DNA of 64,000 nt from Branchiostoma floridae (taxonomy: Eukaryota > Chordata > Leptocardii > Amphioxiformes > Branchiostomatidae), in NCBI RefSeq assembly GCF_000003815.2, contig NC_049990.1, positions 6,136,330 through 6,200,329 of the forward strand. Direction: 5' to 3'. Made by a program: the position numbers and the translations under genes. Shown one piece after another: positions 34,201-64,000 of this stretch. Under the pieces are notes generated by a model, which was given only the letters and a program-made list of their open reading frames with translations, was not told where the DNA came from and did no database searches. Positions within the stretch are counted from its first letter, which is position 1, and each line of letters starts with the position of its first letter.

Positions 34201-37200
34201 TATGTAGATAGGGGGCAATGTAGTCCCCATCTCACCTGGCCACCATTATCAACAGAAAATATTCTCTTCACTCCTAAAGAACAAGGTAGAATAAAGTAAG
34301 GTGTTAGGTTAGAAGTGACTCAGTTCAAAGACACCAAGCTATGAATGAGTGACACCAGCTATAAATGATTGACATGTAAGGGCTATTCCATGTAAAAAGT
34401 GGGGATGTAGAGTCATTTTTTTCCTGTCACTGACATTTTTAAAATCATTTTTCTCCGATCTCGCGAATGCAGTAGTTTTCTTTTCTATTTTTGTTTAGTC
34501 AATTCATCCTCCCAAATATTCCTCCCAATGCAATTATTTCACCCTCAATACATGTGGTATGTCATCGAATTTTACATTTTGTAATCTCCTTTGTGTTACA
34601 GCTAGGATCTTCAAATTTTCAACTTAATTCCACCCATTTTAATGGAATAGCCTTTCTTAAGCATAAAGAGTGAAATTGTTAGTTTTGCATAAAACTTTGT
34701 CAAAGCATAGAATCATGATGGACCATTTTTCCCCAGGATCAGCTGAGCTTCACATCTAATATTTTTCACAACCGAACAAGTCTCTCACTTTAAGTGACCA
34801 AGATTATTTACATGTACCTTAAGTACTAGAGGACCAGAAATTAAGCAACAAGGAGGTTAAAGAACCTTGGCAGCGCAGATGTCGAGTAAATGCGGTGTTG
34901 AATGGGGGTGTAATGCTAGCTCACCTTTATCCGTGGAGCAACCTATATCCGTTGTTTTAAAAGCAGGTTGCTTATGGATATTAAGTCGATGGACAATGGT
35001 TTCAAGTTGCAGTGTTTTCAAAATACAGCATTTTGAAAACAACGGATATAGGTTACCCCGCGGATAAAGGTTAACGAGCATTACTGGCAGTGCTCTTTGC
35101 TAATTTCAGAAAAGTTACCTCTACATATCTGATGAGCAGGCTGGGTTTGCTTTATGCTAAATTCGGGCACCAATTAAACAAACCAACAAACCTTCACTTT
35201 TCACTTTTTACTTTCACTTATTCCTTGTAACATGTGGTCATAATGTATAGACTTTGAAACAAAATACATTCAGTATCTGACAACTTTTTCTTCTTTTCTC
35301 ATCAAGCACAGCAAGCATGACCTTGCTTACAACTATCTCCTGACCATGGTGTGAAGAAGGTCGGTTTGTACTGTAAGATTGCTAAGCCCATCTCCTACAC
35401 AGGGACATAAAATGCCAAAACGGCCTGTCTGGATGTACCCTGCTTTCCCAACTGTCACTCTTAGTTCCTGTGGGCGTTGCCACAAACCAGCTATCAGAGA
35501 ATAGCCTTTCAGTTTCAAAAGGGATCTCGCATATACATAAGGGCAAGCTCATTAATATCTATAAGCAGGGCGGTCAGGAACTAAGGATGACGGTTGAGAA
35601 AGCAGAATACATCGAGTTTTGCCATTGGAGGTCCCTGGGTAGAAGGATGATACGGAATTTCAGGTAAAGATTTGTACTGGAAGATTGCTAAGCCCACCTC
35701 CACACTGCCTGATGTACCACAGGAACCAGAGAGCGGAAATCTCGTGGGGCTCCGACGTCACGTTGATGTGCACAAACATGTCCGCAAATCTCCGCACAGA
35801 GCTGGAATTGCAGGCAAAAAACCGGCTTTTATCAAAAACAGATTTCATTTTCTTAAGAAACATCACTTTGCTATTTGTCACCAGAACACTTTTAATGATG
35901 TCTAGCTGTAAACAGAAAGAAAGAAAGACAATTCAGTCATTTTGTGCTGCAAAGACTTTTTAATGTGAATAAACCACAAACCACTATCTATTAAGAAATG
36001 CACTGGACATACATTTATGTTCATTTATATATTGTTTCCTTGGTTTGTTTATCGTTTAGTTTATCTTATTTCTTTGTTATGCTATTGTGTGTATGTTGTT
36101 TGTACAGGGCACACCTGAAAAGCAGTACCCAAAGTACTGAGTGTGTCCACCCTGTATAAAGAAAACAGAAATAAATAAATAAACTGCAAAGTTTTAGATA
36201 ACAATTGGGGTGGGACATTGAGGGTATGGAGTCTTACTCACCATTTAATGCATTGTATACTTAAAGATATAACTACTTCAGTATGTTTTTGTTTGGCTTA
36301 CCTTGTCCATACCAGTTTATCAAACACATCTTTCATGGTTATTCTGTCCCATTCTTTAGCATGCAGAGCCTGCCACGGTGCCTCGACTGGGATCTGGGGA
36401 CATAGGGATAAATTGAGGAGTGAGTGAGAGAGTGAGTGAATAAATGAGTGAATAAATGAGTGAGTGAGTGAGAGAGTGAGTGAATAAATGAGTGAATAAA
36501 TGAGTGAGTGAGTGAGAGAGTGAGTGAATAAATGAGTGAGTGAGTGAGTGAGTGAGTGAGTACGGGAGTGAGTAAATGAGTGAGTGAGTGAGTGAGTGAG
36601 TAGGGGAGTGAGTAAATGAGTGAGTGAGTGAGTGAGTGAGTAGGAGAGTGAGTAAATGAGTGAGTAAGTGAGTGAGTGAATGAGTGAGTGAGTGAGTGAG
36701 TGAGTGAGAGTGCGTGAGTGAGAGTGCGTGAGTAAGAGAGCAAATGAGTGAGTAATTGATTGAATAAATTAATGCTATTAACCCCCTGGTTTAACTTACA
36801 GTGCTGTGCAGACTACAAAATGACTCCCCTCTTTACTGTCTTGCCCACCCTTTTACTGGCAATGACTCACAAGTACACTTAAGAAGACACTGACCTCAGC
36901 CCCCATCCTGTCCATGGTCCTGAACAGATGTTGTAGGTCCAGTAGACATACGGGATTGGTCACTGCAACCTGTTCTGAGTCAACTGTGAACTTCTTACCC
37001 TGAAATTGTTAATAAAACTTGGATTCAGTTGCATGTTGAGCTATTTTGTGCACACATGCAATATGTAATACCTATATTTATAGTGTTTTTTTTTCATTTG
37101 TTGCTTTATTCAACACTATTAATTTCTTGAGAAGGACATGTGCTTGTTCCATCGGCACTTTCACTTGCCCAGGACAATATTGGGCTAGTAGCCTTGTCCA

Positions 37201-56456: not shown

Positions 56457-56897
56457 ATGGAGAGAAGGAAGGGAAAACCCTCGGACCCAAGAGGCCTCCT
56501 GGCCAACAAACCAACAACGACTGCAAGGGCACAACCCTCCACCATGATGAGTCTATCGTTCTGTGCTATCTTCATAGCTTCCGAAGTTGCCAAGCAATCC
56601 GTAACATATGCCACAAGACATTTCAACAACGGGGTTTACCCCATATCGTCCTCTGCCATCGTGTGCTGTATTGAGCTCGTCAAGTTGATAATGGTTTTGA
56701 TACCGGTTATGTTTACGACTGGTTTTTCCTCGTTTCGGCCTTCCATCGTGTTTGCCGTGCCCTCTGTTATATACTGCGCGAACAACAACTTGTACCTGTT
56801 CGCCCTGAACTACACCACCCCTCCCACTTGGAATGTGCTGATCCAGTCTCGCGTCATCATGACGGCACTGACCTACAGGATCATCTTTGGCAGACAC
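56457..56897 (+). CDS. Transporter exon 1 (start codon, helices 1-4)
   Basis: 147 codons from ATG in the context ATCGACATGG; donor CAC/GTGAGT. A short polar N-terminus (MERRKGKPSDPRGLLANKP) precedes the first helix (SLSFCAIFIASEVAKQSV). Confidence 0.85.
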
Positions 56898-57252: not shown

Positions 57253-60200
57253 TCTCTAATGTAAATGACCAACATAGTTAAACAAGCGTAAAGCGGGGTA
57301 ACCCTCACGACCTGACATAACTGATGATGGGAGGGGGGGGGGGAGCCATGAGTCAAACCAGATGGACCAAACCAGACTTCCAATTCTGCAAGTATCCTAT
57401 TGTACCATTTTCGCCTTATGCCCTACCACTCGGACACAGCGCGGTCACACACCATGACAAACAAACAAACAAACAAACAAACACATAAACTGAAAACAAT
57501 ATTAATACCTTCATTTTCATGGTGGTGATAGCTAGTGGACCTAGTCTGTGTAACACAAACTATCCGGGCTGTAACTTGGGGTTGGCTAGATGTTGGTCGG
57601 GTCGCTGTAATCGTGATTTAATCAGGTATAGATTGGACCGTGCCACTTTTATGGTTAGCAAGTGTCGAGGAAACACAAACCAAGAAAACAAAACAACAAT
57701 TTCTTATATCTGTTTTCAAAACAAAACAACAATTTCTTATATCTGTTTTTTTAATTCTTATTGTTAAGATCTTCCCATGGTCCGTAGCCATGGACTTTAT
57801 TTTTTATTTACAATGTTACAAAGACGTTACAAGAAACACTCCTCAGTGCACACTCTTGACGTTATTGTTCCAACATACTTTCCGTATTTGTATTTTGAAA
57901 TAGTGTGTTTTCCAATCATTATCAGCATGTTTATATTCTGAAATTTGACAACATTATAGAGCTTATAGCCAACAATGACATGATGCAAGTCTAATGATAA
58001 AGATGTACCATAATTTTCTGTTCTCAAAAGATCTCAGTAGTCCGCTGGGTAGCGCTGCTTCTCCTGATGCTGGGCATCGCGCTGGCGCAGTTGGCCGGGT
58101 CCTCCTCGTCCCCAGCGTCCCCAGACATCTACGTGCTCCCCCAGGCTCTCGGGCTCAGCCTCGTTAGTGCCGCCATCTCCACAGCAGCCTCCATCATCAC
58201 AGAGGTAAGAGGATTTGTTTGTTTGTTTGTTTGTTTGCATACACCTCGTCCCCAGCGTCCCCAGACATCTACGTGCTCCCCCAGGCTCTCGGTCTCAGCC
58301 TCGTCAGTGCCGCCATCTCTACAGCAGCCTCCATCATCGCCGCCTTTGACCATGACTTTATTCAGATCCACATCTAGCATACAACGCCAAATAGGAAAGG
58401 GGAACCACTTGCATTTGCTAGCAAGTTATTTTAATAGTGTTTATAAACATGTATACATGTAACACCAATTCACCTTTATCCGCGGGGTAACCTATATCCG
58501 TTGTTCTTAAAACATGGCATTTAGGGATATCAAGTCGACGGACGGTGGTTTCAAATTGCGATATTTTTTTACAATATTTCGGTTTGAAACCGCTGTCCGT
58601 CGACTTGCTATCACTAAACACCTGTCCGAGTTTGAAAACGACGATTATAGGTTACCCCTCGGATAAAGGTGAACTAGCGTTACAGTGTACTTTGGCCCAC
58701 AGTACTTGTGGGTGGTCATCCATGGAACTGCAGGTAAAACAGGGCGGGGAATCATGAGTACTGGCTACCAAATGTTGGTTTGAAGTGTTTATAGAGCACA
58801 ATGTATGTTTGGTCCACAGTACTTGTTCAAGAACGACAAGCGACCGTTCATGGAACAGCAGGTACAGATGTACGCCTTCGGCTTCCTCATCGCGAGCATC
58901 TGGTCCGCCGTCGCTACCAGGGGTGACGTCTTTAAGATTAGCGGGGAATCTCTAAGGTCCGAAATAGTCTTCCTGTTGGTGGCATCCATTCTACTAGGTG
59001 GCGCCGGAGGACTGGCTGTTGCAGGTATGGCACATTACAAGTCTAAGGACCGATCCCAAAACCCCGCCCCCTGTTCGATCATGGTTTTATTTCGAACACG
59101 TACGTCAAAAATAGCCATTTCTGTCCAATGGGGCAGTTTTCGACGGAGGTGTTCGAAATAGTTTTTATCTGTTCGATATGGCGTTCGACAGGATCGGTCC
59201 ATTCTGAAGTGCGCAGTTATGACATGTAATAACCCCTGCATGGTATACATATAGGAAAATATATTAAAGAATGTCTAGACGCTAGAAATCCCTCCAATGA
59301 TTGTAAAAGACCATTTTCATCCCATACTATGCACGCTTGTATTAAGTAGATTAGCCTTATAGAACTGTAGTTATGTATCAGTAGATGCATGCTTTGTACT
59401 TTGTACAATTTTTGCGCAATAGTTTCCATTAACATCCATGGGAAGGTGACCTTGAGGAAGCAATGCAATTTTTTTTTCAAAATGAATTTGCACTGGAAAA
59501 TGTTGATAATCAATCTGTTCCCAATGCATGCATTTTGGACGATTACAATCTAGTTTGCTTTTTAAAATCCAATATATAACCTCGCTCTAAAATCCCCAGC
59601 CACACTGTTGACGAGCTTCGGCAGTATTTTTTGATCGCCAAAAGGTCGGCCGATTATAGAATCGACCAAGGTTTGAATGTACTTTTTACCTGAAAACCCA
59701 TCCCATGAGACGAGACTTGGGGACGAGCGAGCATCGGCCGATCTGTAAAAATCGAGCGATAATCTCAAGAACACCGGGCCGGGCGTATGACAGCCGAAAG
59801 TGTCATTTCAGAGCTCATAGACTCGTCTGCCGATCAGTTTTCCTGCCCATAACGTATTCTGATGCCCTCTTGTCGCTTACAGCGATCATCAAATCGTTGG
59901 ACAACATCGTGAAGATCTACTCGGCCTCCATCTCCATCCTGATGACCGCCATCGTCTGCAGCTTCCTGTTCCCAGAGAAATTCGTCCTCAACACCGCCTT
60001 TGTCTTCGCCGTGCTCCTGATCCTCGTTTCCTCCGTTCTGTACGACAGGCAGGACCTCAGCAACATCCTCCCGTCAAACGTGCGCGTACCCAGATTCTTC
60101 CTCACCAGAAACTTCTTTCTCTTCGTGGCCTTTCTGACGATGCTGGTGCCGATAGGATACTTCATGGCAACGACTTCCTCGTCAACAGCAGACGTTCACA

Positions 60201-61007
60201 AAAGAGGCCTGAACACAATTAAGGGTGATCCTTTGTACGCAATGGAAGGCAAGGCCGCGAACGGAGAATCTGTAAAAATTCATCTTGATGCAGGCAAGAA
60301 CATCCAAGCGGTTCTGTTCGAGAATGAAGGCGTGGCTTTGAAAGACGAGGATGGGAAACTACAAAGACAGTTTGATGCAATAAAGGAAAGGAAACTGAAG
60401 CAAGAGCAAAGCCAAGTAAAGAGGGATAAGCAAGAAGACGCCAGTGACAAGGAGGTGCCAAAACGGTCAAGAAGGAAAGAAGATGTACAGAAAGATGAGG
60501 ATGACAGAAAACAGGATGCGGAGGCGAAACGCAGGCACGGTAATGATAGTGAAAATCCCCGAAGAGCTCATCCAAAACTGGTGAAAGTAGAAGACAGAAT
60601 ACGGGCCCTTGAAAAAGATCGCGCAGAAAAACTAGACAAAATCATGCACGGAGCTCCGGAAAAGAAACAAGTCATGCACAAAATGCACGGTCATGGCCAG
60701 GAGATGAAAGTACACGGAGAAAAAGAGGACAGCGTTGTTCACGGCAAAGACGGACAAAAAGACGAAGAGCTTTATGATAAAGGACTTGAGGAAGACGTCG
60801 AAAATGTAAGAATCAAAAATCGCCGAAAAAGTTTGAGGAAGGACACCCAACAATTCGCAGACACCAGAGATAAGAACAATGTCGAGGATTTGGTGGCAAA
60901 GTCGGGGACGGAGGTACCAAAAGTGGTCCACTTTGTTTGGGACGGTCGCAGAAATTTTCGGTTCCACGACCTACTCAGTGGAAGAGTGCAAAAAGCATCT
61001 TGAACCA
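56457..61007 (+). CDS. Nucleotide-sugar transporter (SLC35A type) fused to a glycosyltransferase-like C-terminus; truncated by gap
   Basis: Coding exons are 56457-56897, 58031-58204, 58820-59024 and 59883 to the gap. Residues about 30-340 form a ten-helix SLC35A-type transporter that would import a nucleotide sugar into the Golgi or ER in exchange for nucleoside monophosphate. Family-like segments are VPSVIYCANNNLYLFALNY, QSRVIMTALTYRIIFGR and AAIIKSLDNIVKIYSASIS. The last exon stays open past the usual end. It adds an eleventh hydrophobic segment (NFFLFVAFLTMLVPIGYF, about 350-366), a highly charged stem of about 250 residues, and VPKVVHFVWDGRRNFRFHD (about 618), which resembles the start of DXD sugar-binding glycosyltransferases. 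The annotated frame stops at 61003, four bases before N; an adjacent frame continues KKHLEP. Substrate specificity cannot be told. Confidence 0.8.
57178..57249. repeat. (AC)n microsatellite in transporter intron 1
   Basis: About 36 CA/AC units, uninterrupted. Confidence 0.97.
58031..58204 (+). CDS. Transporter exon 2
   Basis: 58 codons, phase 0 at both ends: ISVVRWVALLLLMLGIALAQ, a Ser-rich loop, then LPQALGLSLVSAAISTAAS. Acceptor TCTCAAAAG, donor GTAAGA. A 95-bp copy of its 3' part follows in the intron. Confidence 0.85.
58205..58236. repeat. (TTTG)n microsatellite between exon 2 and its copy
   Basis: About six GTTT units directly after the exon 2 donor, separating the exon from its partial duplicate. 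Confidence 0.9.
58244..58338 (+). pseudogene. Partial duplicate of transporter exon 2 in the following intron
   Basis: 95 bases repeat 58104-58198. The only three differences fall at third codon positions and are silent (Gly GGG/GGT, Val GTT/GTC, Ser TCC/TCT). No acceptor precedes it and no donor follows in place, so it is not a complete exon; its frame then runs to a stop at 58375. Confidence 0.85.
58462..58680. mobile_element. TA-flanked palindromic element in transporter intron 2
   Basis: ACACCAATTCACCTTTATCC at the left, GATAAAGGTGAACTAGCGT at the right, TA outside both. The inner arms GGATATCAAGTCGACGGACG and CTGTCCGTCGACTTGCTATC pair. 219 bp. Confidence 0.8.
58820..59024 (+). CDS. Transporter exon 3
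   Basis: 205 bp: YLFKNDKRPFMEQQVQMYAF, GFLIASIWSAVATRGDVFK, and LLVASILLGGAGGLAVA, ending in the first base of the next codon. It carries the luminal loop and helices 7-8. Confidence 0.88.
59883..61007 (+). CDS. Transporter last exon: helices 9-10, extra helix, charged stem, glycosyltransferase start
   Basis: Acceptor CGCTTACAG. 373 codons to a TGA at 61001-61003. The order is helices 9-10 (to about residue 328), a polar linker, an extra hydrophobic segment, the Lys/Glu/Asp/Arg-rich stem with His-Gly repeats (MHGAPEK, MHGHGQEM, VHGEK, VHGKD), then VPKVVHFVWDG. The lack of stops over 1.1 kb supports coding use throughout. Confidence 0.82.
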
Positions 61008-61107
61008 NNNNNNNNNNNNNNNNNNNNNNNNNNNNNNNNNNNNNNNNNNNNNNNNNNNNNNNNNNNNNNNNNNNNNNNNNNNNNNNNNNNNNNNNNNNNN
61101 NNNNNNN
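61008..61107. other. Assembly gap (100 N)
   Basis: A 100-N run is a conventional size for a gap of unknown length. It cuts the glycosyltransferase domain after about 25 residues. Confidence 1.
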
Positions 61108-61409
61108 TCACTTGCATTAAGTTCTAATAGGGGGATCCTAGCAGAAATATACCTCTACTTAGTGCTGAACACCATCCATATTACAGAAATATGCCTGTCC
61201 ATAGTATTGAACACCATCCACAAGGACCACATCAGATGCCTGGCCTTAGTAGTAAATGCCGTTCACCTAACAAAAATACATCTGCCCTTAGTACAGAACA
61301 CCATGCACCTAACAAAGACATATCTGTCCTTAGTACTGAGCACTATTCACCTCACAAAATATGCCTGTCCTTAGTACTGAACACCATCCATAATACAGGG
61401 ATATGCCTG
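61108..61409. repeat. Tandem minisatellite between two gaps
   Basis: Seven or so imperfect units of about 40-45 bases share CCTTAGTACTGAACACCATC and ATATGCCTGTCC. It lies between two 100-N gaps, so its true length is unknown and probably collapsed. Confidence 0.8.
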
Positions 61410-61509: not shown

Positions 61510-61606
61510 AGCTCTGGTACCGCATCTATAAGCAGCGACGCCAATATTTCGGCGGTGCAATGTGGAACAGTTTGACTTGACCTAATTCCTCCCTCCCGTT
61601 AGGCAA

Positions 61607-61751
61607 AAATCTATCGGACGACGAGTCTGCGAGCTCTAAATTACGAGGAGGCATGACCCTTCTGCTGACGAAGAAATGGCAGAGTTCCACCTTCCCGTCA
61701 GGGTCATGCCTCCTCATAATTCAGAGCTCGCAGACTCGTCGTCCGATCGAT
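61607..61751. repeat. Foldback element with near-perfect 45-50-bp arms
   Basis: TCTATCGGACGACGAGTCTG, CGAGCTCTAAATTACGAGGA and GGCATGACCCT are mirrored by AGGGTCATGCC, TCCTCATAATTCAGAGCTCG and CAGACTCGTCGTCCGATCGA. The loop is about 45 bases. No coding content. Confidence 0.75.
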
Positions 61752-62393
61752 TCCGCCTAATGTGAGGGGGGTATAAGGAAGGTGTCAAACGTTCTCTGAA
61801 ACTTCGGCAAAAAATACATCTTTTCTGAAAAAGAGTCTCATTACTCAGTGGCGTACCGATCTGTTGAAGCTATTCCCAAATATGTAAGTCGATACTCTTA
61901 GTTGAATCTGATAATATGACAAAATACATTACCAAATTTTCAAGTTTCTTTCACAAATGGGAACTTTAAACCGCAATGAAACACTCACCAAGTACGTCTT
62001 TGACACAGGTGAACATCGTAGTTGGATCGCAAGATCCCTCAGCTCCTGCGGGCAAAATAGGATTTAAGAAGCTTTATCATATAGATATAGCCAGGCGCCG
62101 TCTGACCAATCAGAAGGCCCCGTTTCATGTTGGTTATGAAGCCGTAACACATAGATTCCGGCCAGCCAGGGTGTATCACTCCTTCTGATTGGTCAGAATT
62201 TCCATTGATACCAGTTGATGTCGATTTGCATCGACACCAACTTCGTTCACTTGGTGGTTTTATTCGGTGGTTATAGCAAAGGCCCAGGCATTATGACACC
62301 ATATACACCTCGGGTCGGGTCATAAACCCTTAATTGTTTTCCAAAACACCAAACAATAATAACAGAACGGTCCTAATGGATTTTATATTGTAC
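61752..62393. other. Non-coding, between transporter and channel genes
   Basis: No exon for the C-terminal part of the channel could be recognised here, although it would be expected on the minus strand. An imperfect inverted repeat (GTCTGACCAATCAGAAGG with CCTTCTGATTGGTCAGAA) spans about 62098-62200. Confidence 0.45.
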
Positions 62394-62538
62394 CTGGTAA
62401 GTCGTAAGCTCGACAGCTGCAGTTGCTGACCACGTGTTTGCTTCTGCACTCTAGATAGCAGCCGTTCAGCGTGTAGGTGTCGTAATACTCCAGCTGTAGG
62501 TCCTGGCAGACCCCCCACGGAGGCACGTGGTTCTCGTA
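62394..62538 (-). CDS. DEG/ENaC (ASIC-like) channel, downstream exon
   Basis: Acceptor CCCCTCCCCAG, then YENHVPPWGVCQDLQLEYYD, TYTLNGCYLECRSKHVVSN and CSCRAYDLP, donor GTACAA. The pattern PPWGxC, then Cys-xxx-Cys and CxCR..D.PG, is the start of the cysteine-rich thumb region of degenerin/epithelial sodium channels. It joins in phase to the exon at 63381-63533. Later exons (second transmembrane helix) were not found. Confidence 0.82.
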
Positions 62539-62750
62539 CTGGGGAGGGGAAATGTTGAATAATGTTACAGTCATAATGTACGTAAAATGATGTGATCGTC
62601 TTAGGATCTCCGTGATCAGTTTCATTCATCGATAATTTACATTGTGGAATACAACTCTTACATTTGGGACAGTACTGTAAACATCGCATTAAATACTAGT
62701 GACCATGTATATTTATCAACAAGCTTTCACATTGTATCCTTATTGCCAAA

Positions 62751-62964
62751 TACGTTGTAAATGCATTTAGGTTTGCGGGGATTTAATTTCGCGGTAGCGG
62801 GAAAAAGGACTTTTCACGGTGGTTTTAATTTCGCGGTAACACCATAGTCTGCAATCTAATACCGTAATAGAAAAATGTTCGCGGTGGATTTAAGTTCGCG
62901 GTAAAGTGGCCCCCGCATCCACCGCGAAAAAAAATCTACCGCGAACATTTCTGCATTTACAGTA
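62751..62964. repeat. TTCGCGGT foldback family, copy in channel intron
   Basis: Starts TACGTTGTAAATGCATTTAG and ends TGCATTTACAGTA, 214 bp, same motif order as the copy at 30234. It lies in the intron between the two channel exons. Confidence 0.8.
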
Positions 62965-63196
62965 TGTAATTTACACCTGTTTTTGAAAGACTTGAAACCA
63001 AACTTAAAATATTTCAAAGCTAAAATTGCCAATATGCCAATGATAGATATCCCTTAGATACACCTGTTAATTCAATTACAGATCAATGATCAATGATTGT
63101 TACCCTTCTCTCTTTCACCCAGTTTTGTTATACCTCATGTAAATGTCTTTTTCCATTGTGCTCCAATGATGTACATGTTCGTCTTATTATGTATTA

Positions 63197-63296
63197 NNNN
63201 NNNNNNNNNNNNNNNNNNNNNNNNNNNNNNNNNNNNNNNNNNNNNNNNNNNNNNNNNNNNNNNNNNNNNNNNNNNNNNNNNNNNNNNNNNNNNNNN
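63197..63296. other. Assembly gap (100 N) in channel intron
   Basis: Unsequenced; it falls between the two recognised channel exons. Confidence 1.
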
Positions 63297-63380
63297 GGCG
63301 CCTATCCTGCAGTACAATGCAAACCTGTTTTAAGTACCATTACGAAGGTGGCAGACGGTCAGTTAGGTTTGAGGTCCTAC

Positions 63381-63533
63381 CAATGTCTGCTTGACGGCAA
63401 TGAAAGCGCTGTTGCCCGGCGCGAGGGCAATTCCTTGGGTGTCAATCATGGGAGGTTCCCTCGGATCGTGCACCAGGAGTTTCAGTCCGACTTCAGAATT
63501 CCCACCAACGGAAAAACTTTCGGTGTATTGGTC
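63381..63533 (-). CDS. DEG/ENaC (ASIC-like) channel, upstream exon
   Basis: Acceptor AATTTTACAG, then DQYTESFSVGGNSEVGLKLL, VHDPREPPMIDTQGIALAPG and NSAFIAVKQTL, donor GTAGGA; 153 bp, phase 0 at both ends. GLKLLVHDP..PP....G....PG is a hallmark of the extracellular palm of the family. The first transmembrane helix and N-terminus lie beyond 64000. Ligand or proton sensitivity cannot be inferred. Confidence 0.85.
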
Positions 63534-64000
63534 CTGTAAAATTATGATGACCATCAGTACAATGTAGCAGCCAACAGTCTATCTTATGCTGTGATCAAAA
63601 TTCACGCCGGTGCCCGTCGGAGATATGTAGCCCCGGCCCGGCTCTGAAGCTATAAATTTGTCCCAGTGGACTGACGGATATACCGCGGGGGTACCTAACA
63701 GTGTTGTCACGGGTTGGTCACGGTGTCTTTTTATTACCGGGTATCACCGGGTCCCGGATTGATTTTAATTCCAAATTCAAGAACTAGAATCCGGTGCCCG
63801 GCTGCGCCCAATATAACCGGCTAGTCGCAGAGTGTCCGACGGGGCCATGTAGGGACCACGCCCGAAAGTGCAACAAAACAGCGAATGAACGACCCGCTGG
63901 GGCCCCTACTTCCAATTCAAACTCTTGTTTGTTCTATGGAAAGCAACCGCCAATTTCAACTAGAATTGGATGGATTCCAGGAGTAATGATGAACATGACC
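63534..64000. other. Channel intron or upstream sequence
   Basis: Moderately GC-rich, with scattered CCGGGTA/CCCGG-type inverted motifs (about 63600-63850) that look like a repeat fragment. No exon was recognised. Confidence 0.4.

Follow-up and report, generated by a model that had tools for sequence, protein, structure and literature searches.

A candidate gene of Branchiostoma floridae that would join an SLC35A-type nucleotide-sugar transporter to an anchored glycosyltransferase

The locus

The present work concerns a stretch of 64,000 nucleotides of the Branchiostoma floridae genome (the window, C12:6136330-6200329, where C12 is contig NC_049990.1), in which a gene for an SLC35A-type nucleotide-sugar transporter continues, inside its fourth exon and without a break in the reading frame, into a hydrophobic segment, a charged stem and the first residues of a glycosyltransferase domain. 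The interpretation favoured here, to which a probability of about 65% is assigned, is that these parts belong to one fused gene that encodes a transporter continued into an anchored glycosyltransferase. Three elements of this interpretation are directly observed: exon 4 is open and continuous, each half can be assigned to its family, and the end of such a transferase domain lies downstream, with clean splice sites, a DxD motif and a stop codon. Positions given below without a contig name are those of the window; the genome searched comprises 513 Mb in 431 contigs, and the counts of family matches obtained from it are lower bounds.

The transporter half

The gene lies on the plus strand and begins with exon 1 (56457-56897), which supplies the start methionine, the cytosolic N-terminus and helices 1-4 and which ends in the phase 0 donor CAC/gtgagt. 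Exon 2 (58031-58204; helices 5-6; phase 0; donor GAG/gtaaga) and exon 3 (58820-59024; helices 7-8; phase 1; donor CAG/gtatgg) are followed by exon 4 (59883-61003; acceptor ttacag), which contains in a single frame the end of the transporter, an eleventh helix, the stem and the start of the transferase. The four exons are bordered by GT-AG sites, their phases are compatible, and the spliced product, as assembled, is 646 residues long. Its residues 48-327 match positions 23-314 of the 315 in the PF04142 profile (E 1.6e-30; 106.7 bits compared to a curated cut-off of 27), so that the profile reaches to within one position of its end in helices 9 and 10 (residues 280-327; 59900-60043). Among solved structures the product matches a CMP-sialic acid transporter 1, a plant protein, at 103 bits, and two CMP-sialic acid transporter constructs at 56 bits each.

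SLC35A transporters have about ten helices, with both ends in the cytosol. The hydropathy of the product, from which the helix numbers used here were assigned, is compatible with ten helices and shows an eleventh hydrophobic segment after them in the same frame. The first-pass annotation of this DNA had proposed a transporter of the SLC35A type, and the PF04142 profile and the solved relatives bear this out: judged by its sequence, the product of exons 1-4 is an SLC35A-type transporter, for which transport function is predicted. At all six of the other PF04142 loci in the genome the reading frame containing helix 10 ends within 2-53 residues beyond it (24 at C5, 20 at C13, 20 at C15, 53 at C12 near 11.29 Mb, 29 at C1 near 28.06 Mb and 2 at C2 near 9.94 Mb), where the frame was chosen by eye at the C15 and C2 loci and where splicing ahead of the stop is possible at the six loci. 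Intron 2 of the window gene also holds a partial copy of exon 2 (58244-58338; 95 bases, 97% identical).

The continuity of exon 4

The transporter frame of exon 4 is open from 59883 to a TGA at 61001-61003, and there is no N in 59883-61007. Measured from stop to stop it has 447 codons, which makes it the longest in the list of window frames (a list that omits frames running off the ends of the window), compared to a mean of 157 and a maximum of 209 codons for the longest frame in 30 simulated windows of 64 kb drawn from a first-order Markov model; a frame of this length is far beyond chance. It contains, in order, helices 9-10, a hydrophobic segment, a charged stretch and VPKVVHFVWDGRRNFRF, so the uninterrupted path from transporter helices through an added hydrophobic segment and a charged stem into an enzyme, as described at first pass, is indeed seen in exon 4 without an N or a stop codon. 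It had also been stated that no methionine lies between helix 10 and the start of the added helix, which is confirmed by the absence of an in-frame ATG between 59942, in helix 9, and 60140, which is already within helix 11.

The linker that follows helix 10 (YDRQ...VRVPRFFLTRN; 60044-60112) becomes basic towards its end and contains no methionine. Helix 11 (residues 351-369, FFLFVAFLTMLVPIGYFMA; 60113-60169), which is presumed to be the transferase anchor, is recognized by its hydropathy and is helical in a low-confidence model; its mean hydropathy over the best 19 residues (351-369) is 2.19, compared to 2.52 for helix 10, and there are three arginines in the eleven residues that precede it and no arginine or lysine in the ten that follow. 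After it comes the charged stem (60170-60913), of about 248 residues, which is rich in lysine, glutamate, aspartate, arginine and histidine. A single-sequence model of exon 4, which has three long helices at its start, is too poor to rely on (mean predicted local distance difference test score, pLDDT, 53.8); at low confidence it also places a few strands within the stem, at 60242-60346, ahead of the stem helices.

The guanine-plus-cytosine (GC) content of third codon positions falls near the start of the stem, with the change point at residue 363 (range 356-384; log-likelihood gain 22.6). This change was considered as a scar of the fusion and was dropped as evidence, since a fast-evolving stem accounts for it equally; the first 100 codons of a related anchor and stem region on contig C1 have a third-position GC content of 0.55, compared to an exon average of 0.71. 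Splicing away of the exon 4 tail appears unlikely, because only one GT in 59900-61000 has a donor score above 1.5, that at 60806 (3.68), inside the stem; the seven donors taken as real score 2.98-7.53.

An anchor-like helix and a stem are present without the short, methionine-started cytosolic tail of a type II Golgi transferase. The tail of exon 4 is not classed as a type II protein because the in-frame methionine is absent between 59942 and 60140, though in function it may resemble one.

The start of the enzyme

The N-terminal end of the transferase domain (VPKVVHFVWDGRRNFRFHDLLS; 60914-60979, plus strand) was identified through relatives in the same genome. It has 64% identity over 22 residues to the third domain of a transferase gene on contig C1 (tblastn, E 1.6e-6), and when a profile of the N-terminal ends of four relatives was run against the 2,148 window frames of at least 20 residues, a single frame fell below E 0.05, the start in exon 4 at E 2.7e-7, the next being at 0.083. 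The PF04488 matches in the genome sit at profile positions 45-91 of 93, later than the piece in exon 4. A PHROGs scan of the short enzyme start returned nothing, and a search of PDB sequences with it returned only chance matches to six sequences (best E 0.54).

The family-like frame stops at ...HDLLS (60979); the seven codons after it and the TGA are unlike the family. This corrects the first-pass annotation, whose interval reached 61007: in the last bases before the gap (60980-61007, plus strand) the frame in use reads GRVQKAS and a stop, and the next frame reads, by eye, the family-like SVEECKKHLEP. The disagreement reflects either an error at the contig edge or a real frameshift. Immediately beyond it a gap of 100 N (61008-61107) interrupts the transferase domain, and the true 3' end of exon 4 probably lies in or beyond this gap. 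What had been called a type II-like glycosyltransferase tail is thus upheld as the start of a DxD transferase by the relatives in the same genome, with only about 22 of its residues in the window and without the start methionine of a type II protein.

Relatives of the enzyme and its proposed downstream exons

A search of the genome with exon 4 gave, apart from itself, four matches at E 0.5-6, one of which is a 47% identity over 30 residues in a 764-codon frame of contig C1 that also matches PF04488. In this frame an anchor and a short stem are followed by two transferase domains and the beginning of another, the remainder of which comes from further exons, and the gene to which it belongs (C1:15408323-15411840) therefore has an anchor and three tandem PF04488-type domains, the transporter being absent from the frame. 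The frame has a methionine and then the anchor, MPRLSLRRVVTGVTFLIVVSLGVSLL. The first domain has, by eye, GTD where the DxD motif is expected, and a model of the second domain (mean pLDDT 58.8) resembles glycosyltransferases by Foldseek (best 50 of 112 chains at E at most 0.001, with TM-scores of at most 0.50). A proposed homology between the start of the C1 anchor (MPRLSLRR...) and VPRFFLTR in exon 4, by which a start methionine would have become valine, is unsupported, since other registers along the product score 11, 10 and 9 compared to 9; the score of this pairing does exceed that of shuffled sequences, 45 of 20,000 of which reached it.

When the C1 transferase domains were used as tblastn queries against C12:6190000-6239600, the start in exon 4 was recovered and four exons were found beyond it on the same strand: exon 5 (C12:6205654-6205809), exon 6 (C12:6206604-6206734), exon 7 (C12:6207295-6207384) and exon 8 (C12:6207668-6207773), with borders placed by eye. 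They lie about 8.3 kb beyond exon 4, outside the window, and spliced together through clean splice sites they encode 160 residues that include the DxD motif VYVDWD and end in a stop codon; an AATAAA occurs, by eye, about 530 bases past the stop of exon 8. The window thus holds the start of the enzyme domain, and most of the remainder of such a domain lies 8.3 kb beyond. The spliced exons match PF04488 just above its cut-off (E 7.2e-5; 23.9 bits compared to 23), and their identity to the third C1 domain is 68% in exon 5, 75% in exon 6 and 58% in a stretch over exon 7. Over 52 codons of exon 5, identity to C1 is 69, 88 and 40% at codon positions 1, 2 and 3, a pattern which suggests a protein under selection. 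PF04488 and a single-domain query locate the family at C1 and at these places on C12 only (at least 6 and at least 7 matches), and among the matches found there is no third-domain end apart from the known C1 and C12 sites.

Another of the C12 places is a piece with two tandem family domains (C12:6226296-6227642), which starts at a gap inside its first domain and ends in the donor CAG/gtaagc. The contig that holds it (C12:6226296-6229165) begins about 45 residues into the first domain, and the second domain has, by eye, NID instead of DxD. This piece may be a separate gene without its ends, or a misplaced part of the fused gene.

The region between the halves

The sequence between exon 4 and exon 5 begins, next to the gap, with a minisatellite (61108-61409, plus strand). 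The best non-self match of 61150-61409 lies at C12:6205192-6205426, on the same strand and just upstream of exon 5, and it scores 173 bits, compared to 129 for the best match off the locus (40 of 180 candidates scored). Three 100-N gaps occur within 2.3 kb beside exon 4. Six blocks in the last 2.5 kb of the window (61510-64000) align collinearly with C2:72626-74677 at identities of 82-98%, or 97-98% in the three longest (1,358 of 1,658 aligned columns), and about a third of the segment is unaligned; C2 carries extra copies of the exon of an amiloride-sensitive sodium channel nearby. In another lancelet, allelic differences amount to about 4.4% single-nucleotide polymorphisms, according to PMC4284660. 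Because the identity to C2 fits such differences, the channel fragment in 61510-64000 is probably a misplaced second haplotype copy, the alternative being a recent duplication nested in the intron.

The stretch 61510-61580 was considered as a C-terminal exon of the enzyme and rejected, as it has no Pfam match and its contig aligns with the channel region of C2. At about 61615-61750 an inverted repeat (GACGACGAGTCTGCGAGCTC ... GAGCTCGCAGACTCGTCGTC, by eye) resembles a small transposable element. Elsewhere in the window, seven further long open frames gave no Pfam match above cut-off, and a repeat at 36298-36812 on the minus strand, open in three frames and encoding SLTHSLTH runs, has the appearance of a tandem repeat and not of a gene.

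The proposed fusion and its alternatives

In the proposed fused gene, the first three exons and the beginning of exon 4 would form ten transmembrane helices; the remainder of exon 4 would add helix 11, a stem that is long and charged and the first part of the transferase, and would be joined to exons 5-8 (C12:6205654-6207773). With eleven helices, an odd number, the stem and the catalytic domain would lie in the lumen of the Golgi or the endoplasmic reticulum, with which the arginines before helix 11 agree. An eleventh helix with a luminal tail had been suggested at first pass, and its hydrophobic segment, with arginines on the N-terminal side, is present; the luminal position of the tail is predicted from it. 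SLC35 carriers bring nucleotide sugars into the Golgi or endoplasmic reticulum and carry nucleotide monophosphates out, and luminal transferases use these sugars. The transporter would therefore release its nucleotide sugar at the same luminal side as the enzyme, and the tether would keep the supply and the use of the donor in one molecule, so that, as a prediction, the donor would probably be imported and used by the same chain. A stem that is long and probably flexible would favour local enrichment of the donor rather than a sealed channel. Such a gene could have originated when a transporter gene was joined upstream of a transferase gene like the transporter-free C1 type.

The number of transferase domains in the fused product can be judged from the 32 residues formed by the exon 4 start and the next frame, of which 16 are identical to the third C1 domain, compared to 14 for the first, 12 for the second and 12 for the remaining one of the four domains compared. 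The start resembles a third domain more closely than it does a first, which favours, at the level of sequence likeness, an enzyme with a single domain. A less likely form of the proposal, which is considered doubtful, is a transporter-synthase with three tandem domains, in which the second C12 contig would fill the interval from exon 4 to exon 5, giving the arrangement of the C1 gene: the domain begun in exon 4 breaks off after about 32 residues and the second C12 piece picks up a domain about 45 residues in, so that the contig ends are complementary. If true, a three-domain transporter-synthase could bring in its donor and assemble a short glycan on site.

A number of observations weigh against a fused gene of this structure, and these are gathered here and with the alternatives to which they also belong. 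The residues of exon 4 that are surely enzyme number only about 22, and a domain search of the C-terminus gave a match to the profile of the relatives but none to Pfam, which gave no transferase match for the 23-, 33- and 43-residue enzyme starts or for the whole of exon 4. Judged by the C1 gene, the join from exon 4 to exon 5 lacks about 56 residues. A genome search for them did not find them, its four matches falling twice in the C1 gene and once each in the second C12 piece (E 4.4) and on contig C76 (E 3.1); C76 is unsupported as the site of the missing middle, since the family profile scores no better there than E 1.7 and tblastn of that piece alone was empty up to E 10. The typing of the domain is close, with BLOSUM62 scores over the 32 residues of 88 for the third domain, 82 for the second and 68 for the first, and over the first 22 residues the second domain is ahead, at 76 compared to 74. 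The minisatellite family is widespread, with at least 112 matches listed, and the segment 61510-64000 carries a channel exon on the minus strand (PF00858, E 2.1e-9) within what would be an intron of the fused gene.

The alternative that survives best, although it is considered unlikely, is that the locus yields two products from overlapping transcription units which share an exon: a transferase mRNA whose own first exon is spliced into 60049 or 60109, and a transporter mRNA that ends at an early poly(A) site or has another 3' end. The two sites, both in the linker, are acceptor-like and score 5.09 and 3.56, and a separate first exon for the transferase is possible because these scores resemble those of the seven acceptors of the gene itself (-0.54 to 6.71); in addition, an AATAAA is found at 60379, inside the stem, and the C1 relative is a free-standing transferase with a methionine and an anchor in frame. 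The acceptor-like sites and the AATAAA also count against the fused gene. On the other side, helices 9-10 were found only in exon 4, whose sole GT with a donor score above 1.5 in 59900-61000 is in the stem, so that normal splicing would still carry the transporter mRNA into helix 11; the frame that joins the halves stays open and contains no methionine; and truncation at the 60379 signal would leave the transporter mRNA without a stop codon.

A further objection to the fused gene is the disagreement between frame and family across the last 28 bases ahead of the 100-N gap, which would be explained if the fusion were broken or dying, with a real frameshift at about 60978 that would end the protein past the stem, as a transporter that has a charged tail in the lumen but lacks the enzyme. 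This is considered improbable. The frame as assembled does finish in GRVQKAS and TGA, but the mismatch lies within 28 bases of a contig edge, and family-like sequence resumes immediately in the next frame. Base errors are common at contig edges. Exons 5-8, moreover, are intact, with clean splice sites, and exon 5 has the codon pattern of a selected protein.

Least probable of all is an assembly chimaera, in which transporter and transferase sequences of different origin would have been joined into a false continuous exon: the local assembly is poor, as the three gaps and the likely misplaced copy of C2:72626-74677 at 61510-64000 attest, but exon 4 contains no N, a chance join would be unlikely to keep the frame from helix 10 through anchor and stem to enzyme, and the genome search found no second copy of exon 4 (best other match E 0.5).

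Comparison with known systems

The proposed fused gene resembles the SLC35A family (PF04142) in its match to nearly the whole profile, in a hydropathy compatible with ten helices and in its solved relatives, and it differs from that family in running on into helix 11 and a stem, where the frames of the six other loci stop soon past helix 10. It resembles the three-domain PF04488 (Gly_transf_sug) gene of C1 in family and in its domain start, and its exons 5 and 6 are 68-75% identical to the third domain of that gene; the C1 gene, however, is transporter-free in its frame and has three domains in tandem and a methionine ahead of the anchor, whereas the window gene has a transporter and lacks that methionine. 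Membrane parts and transferases also occur in one chain in hyaluronan synthases and where a GtrA-type membrane domain is joined to a GT2 polyprenol-phosphate transferase, but these belong to other membrane and transferase families and contain no SLC35 carrier. No transporter-transferase fusion of the kind proposed here was found in the open-access papers searched, which agrees with the statement in the first-pass annotation that no animal protein with this order has been described.

In lancelets, many new domain pairs have arisen, at more than 10 per million years, according to PMC4284660. If the fusion is real, it adds a transporter-enzyme pair to these, and the high rate tempers the surprise. 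Evidence on whether particular transporters feed Golgi transferases comes, in the present judgement, largely from interaction screens. A natural fusion, if true, would reveal the pairing of transporter with enzyme, and the covalent pair would provide a natural test of the coupling idea. A comparison can be made with the mammalian Golgi, in which, according to PMC9368800 and PMC6453868, SLC35A2, SLC35A3 or SLC35A4 form complexes with UGT8, Mgats, B4GalT1 and B4GalT4, possibly coupling the supply of the donor to its use. In these complexes, as in the proposed gene, transporter and enzyme are held together; the mammalian partners, as described there, are separate polypeptides that associate, whereas in the lancelet they would form one chain.

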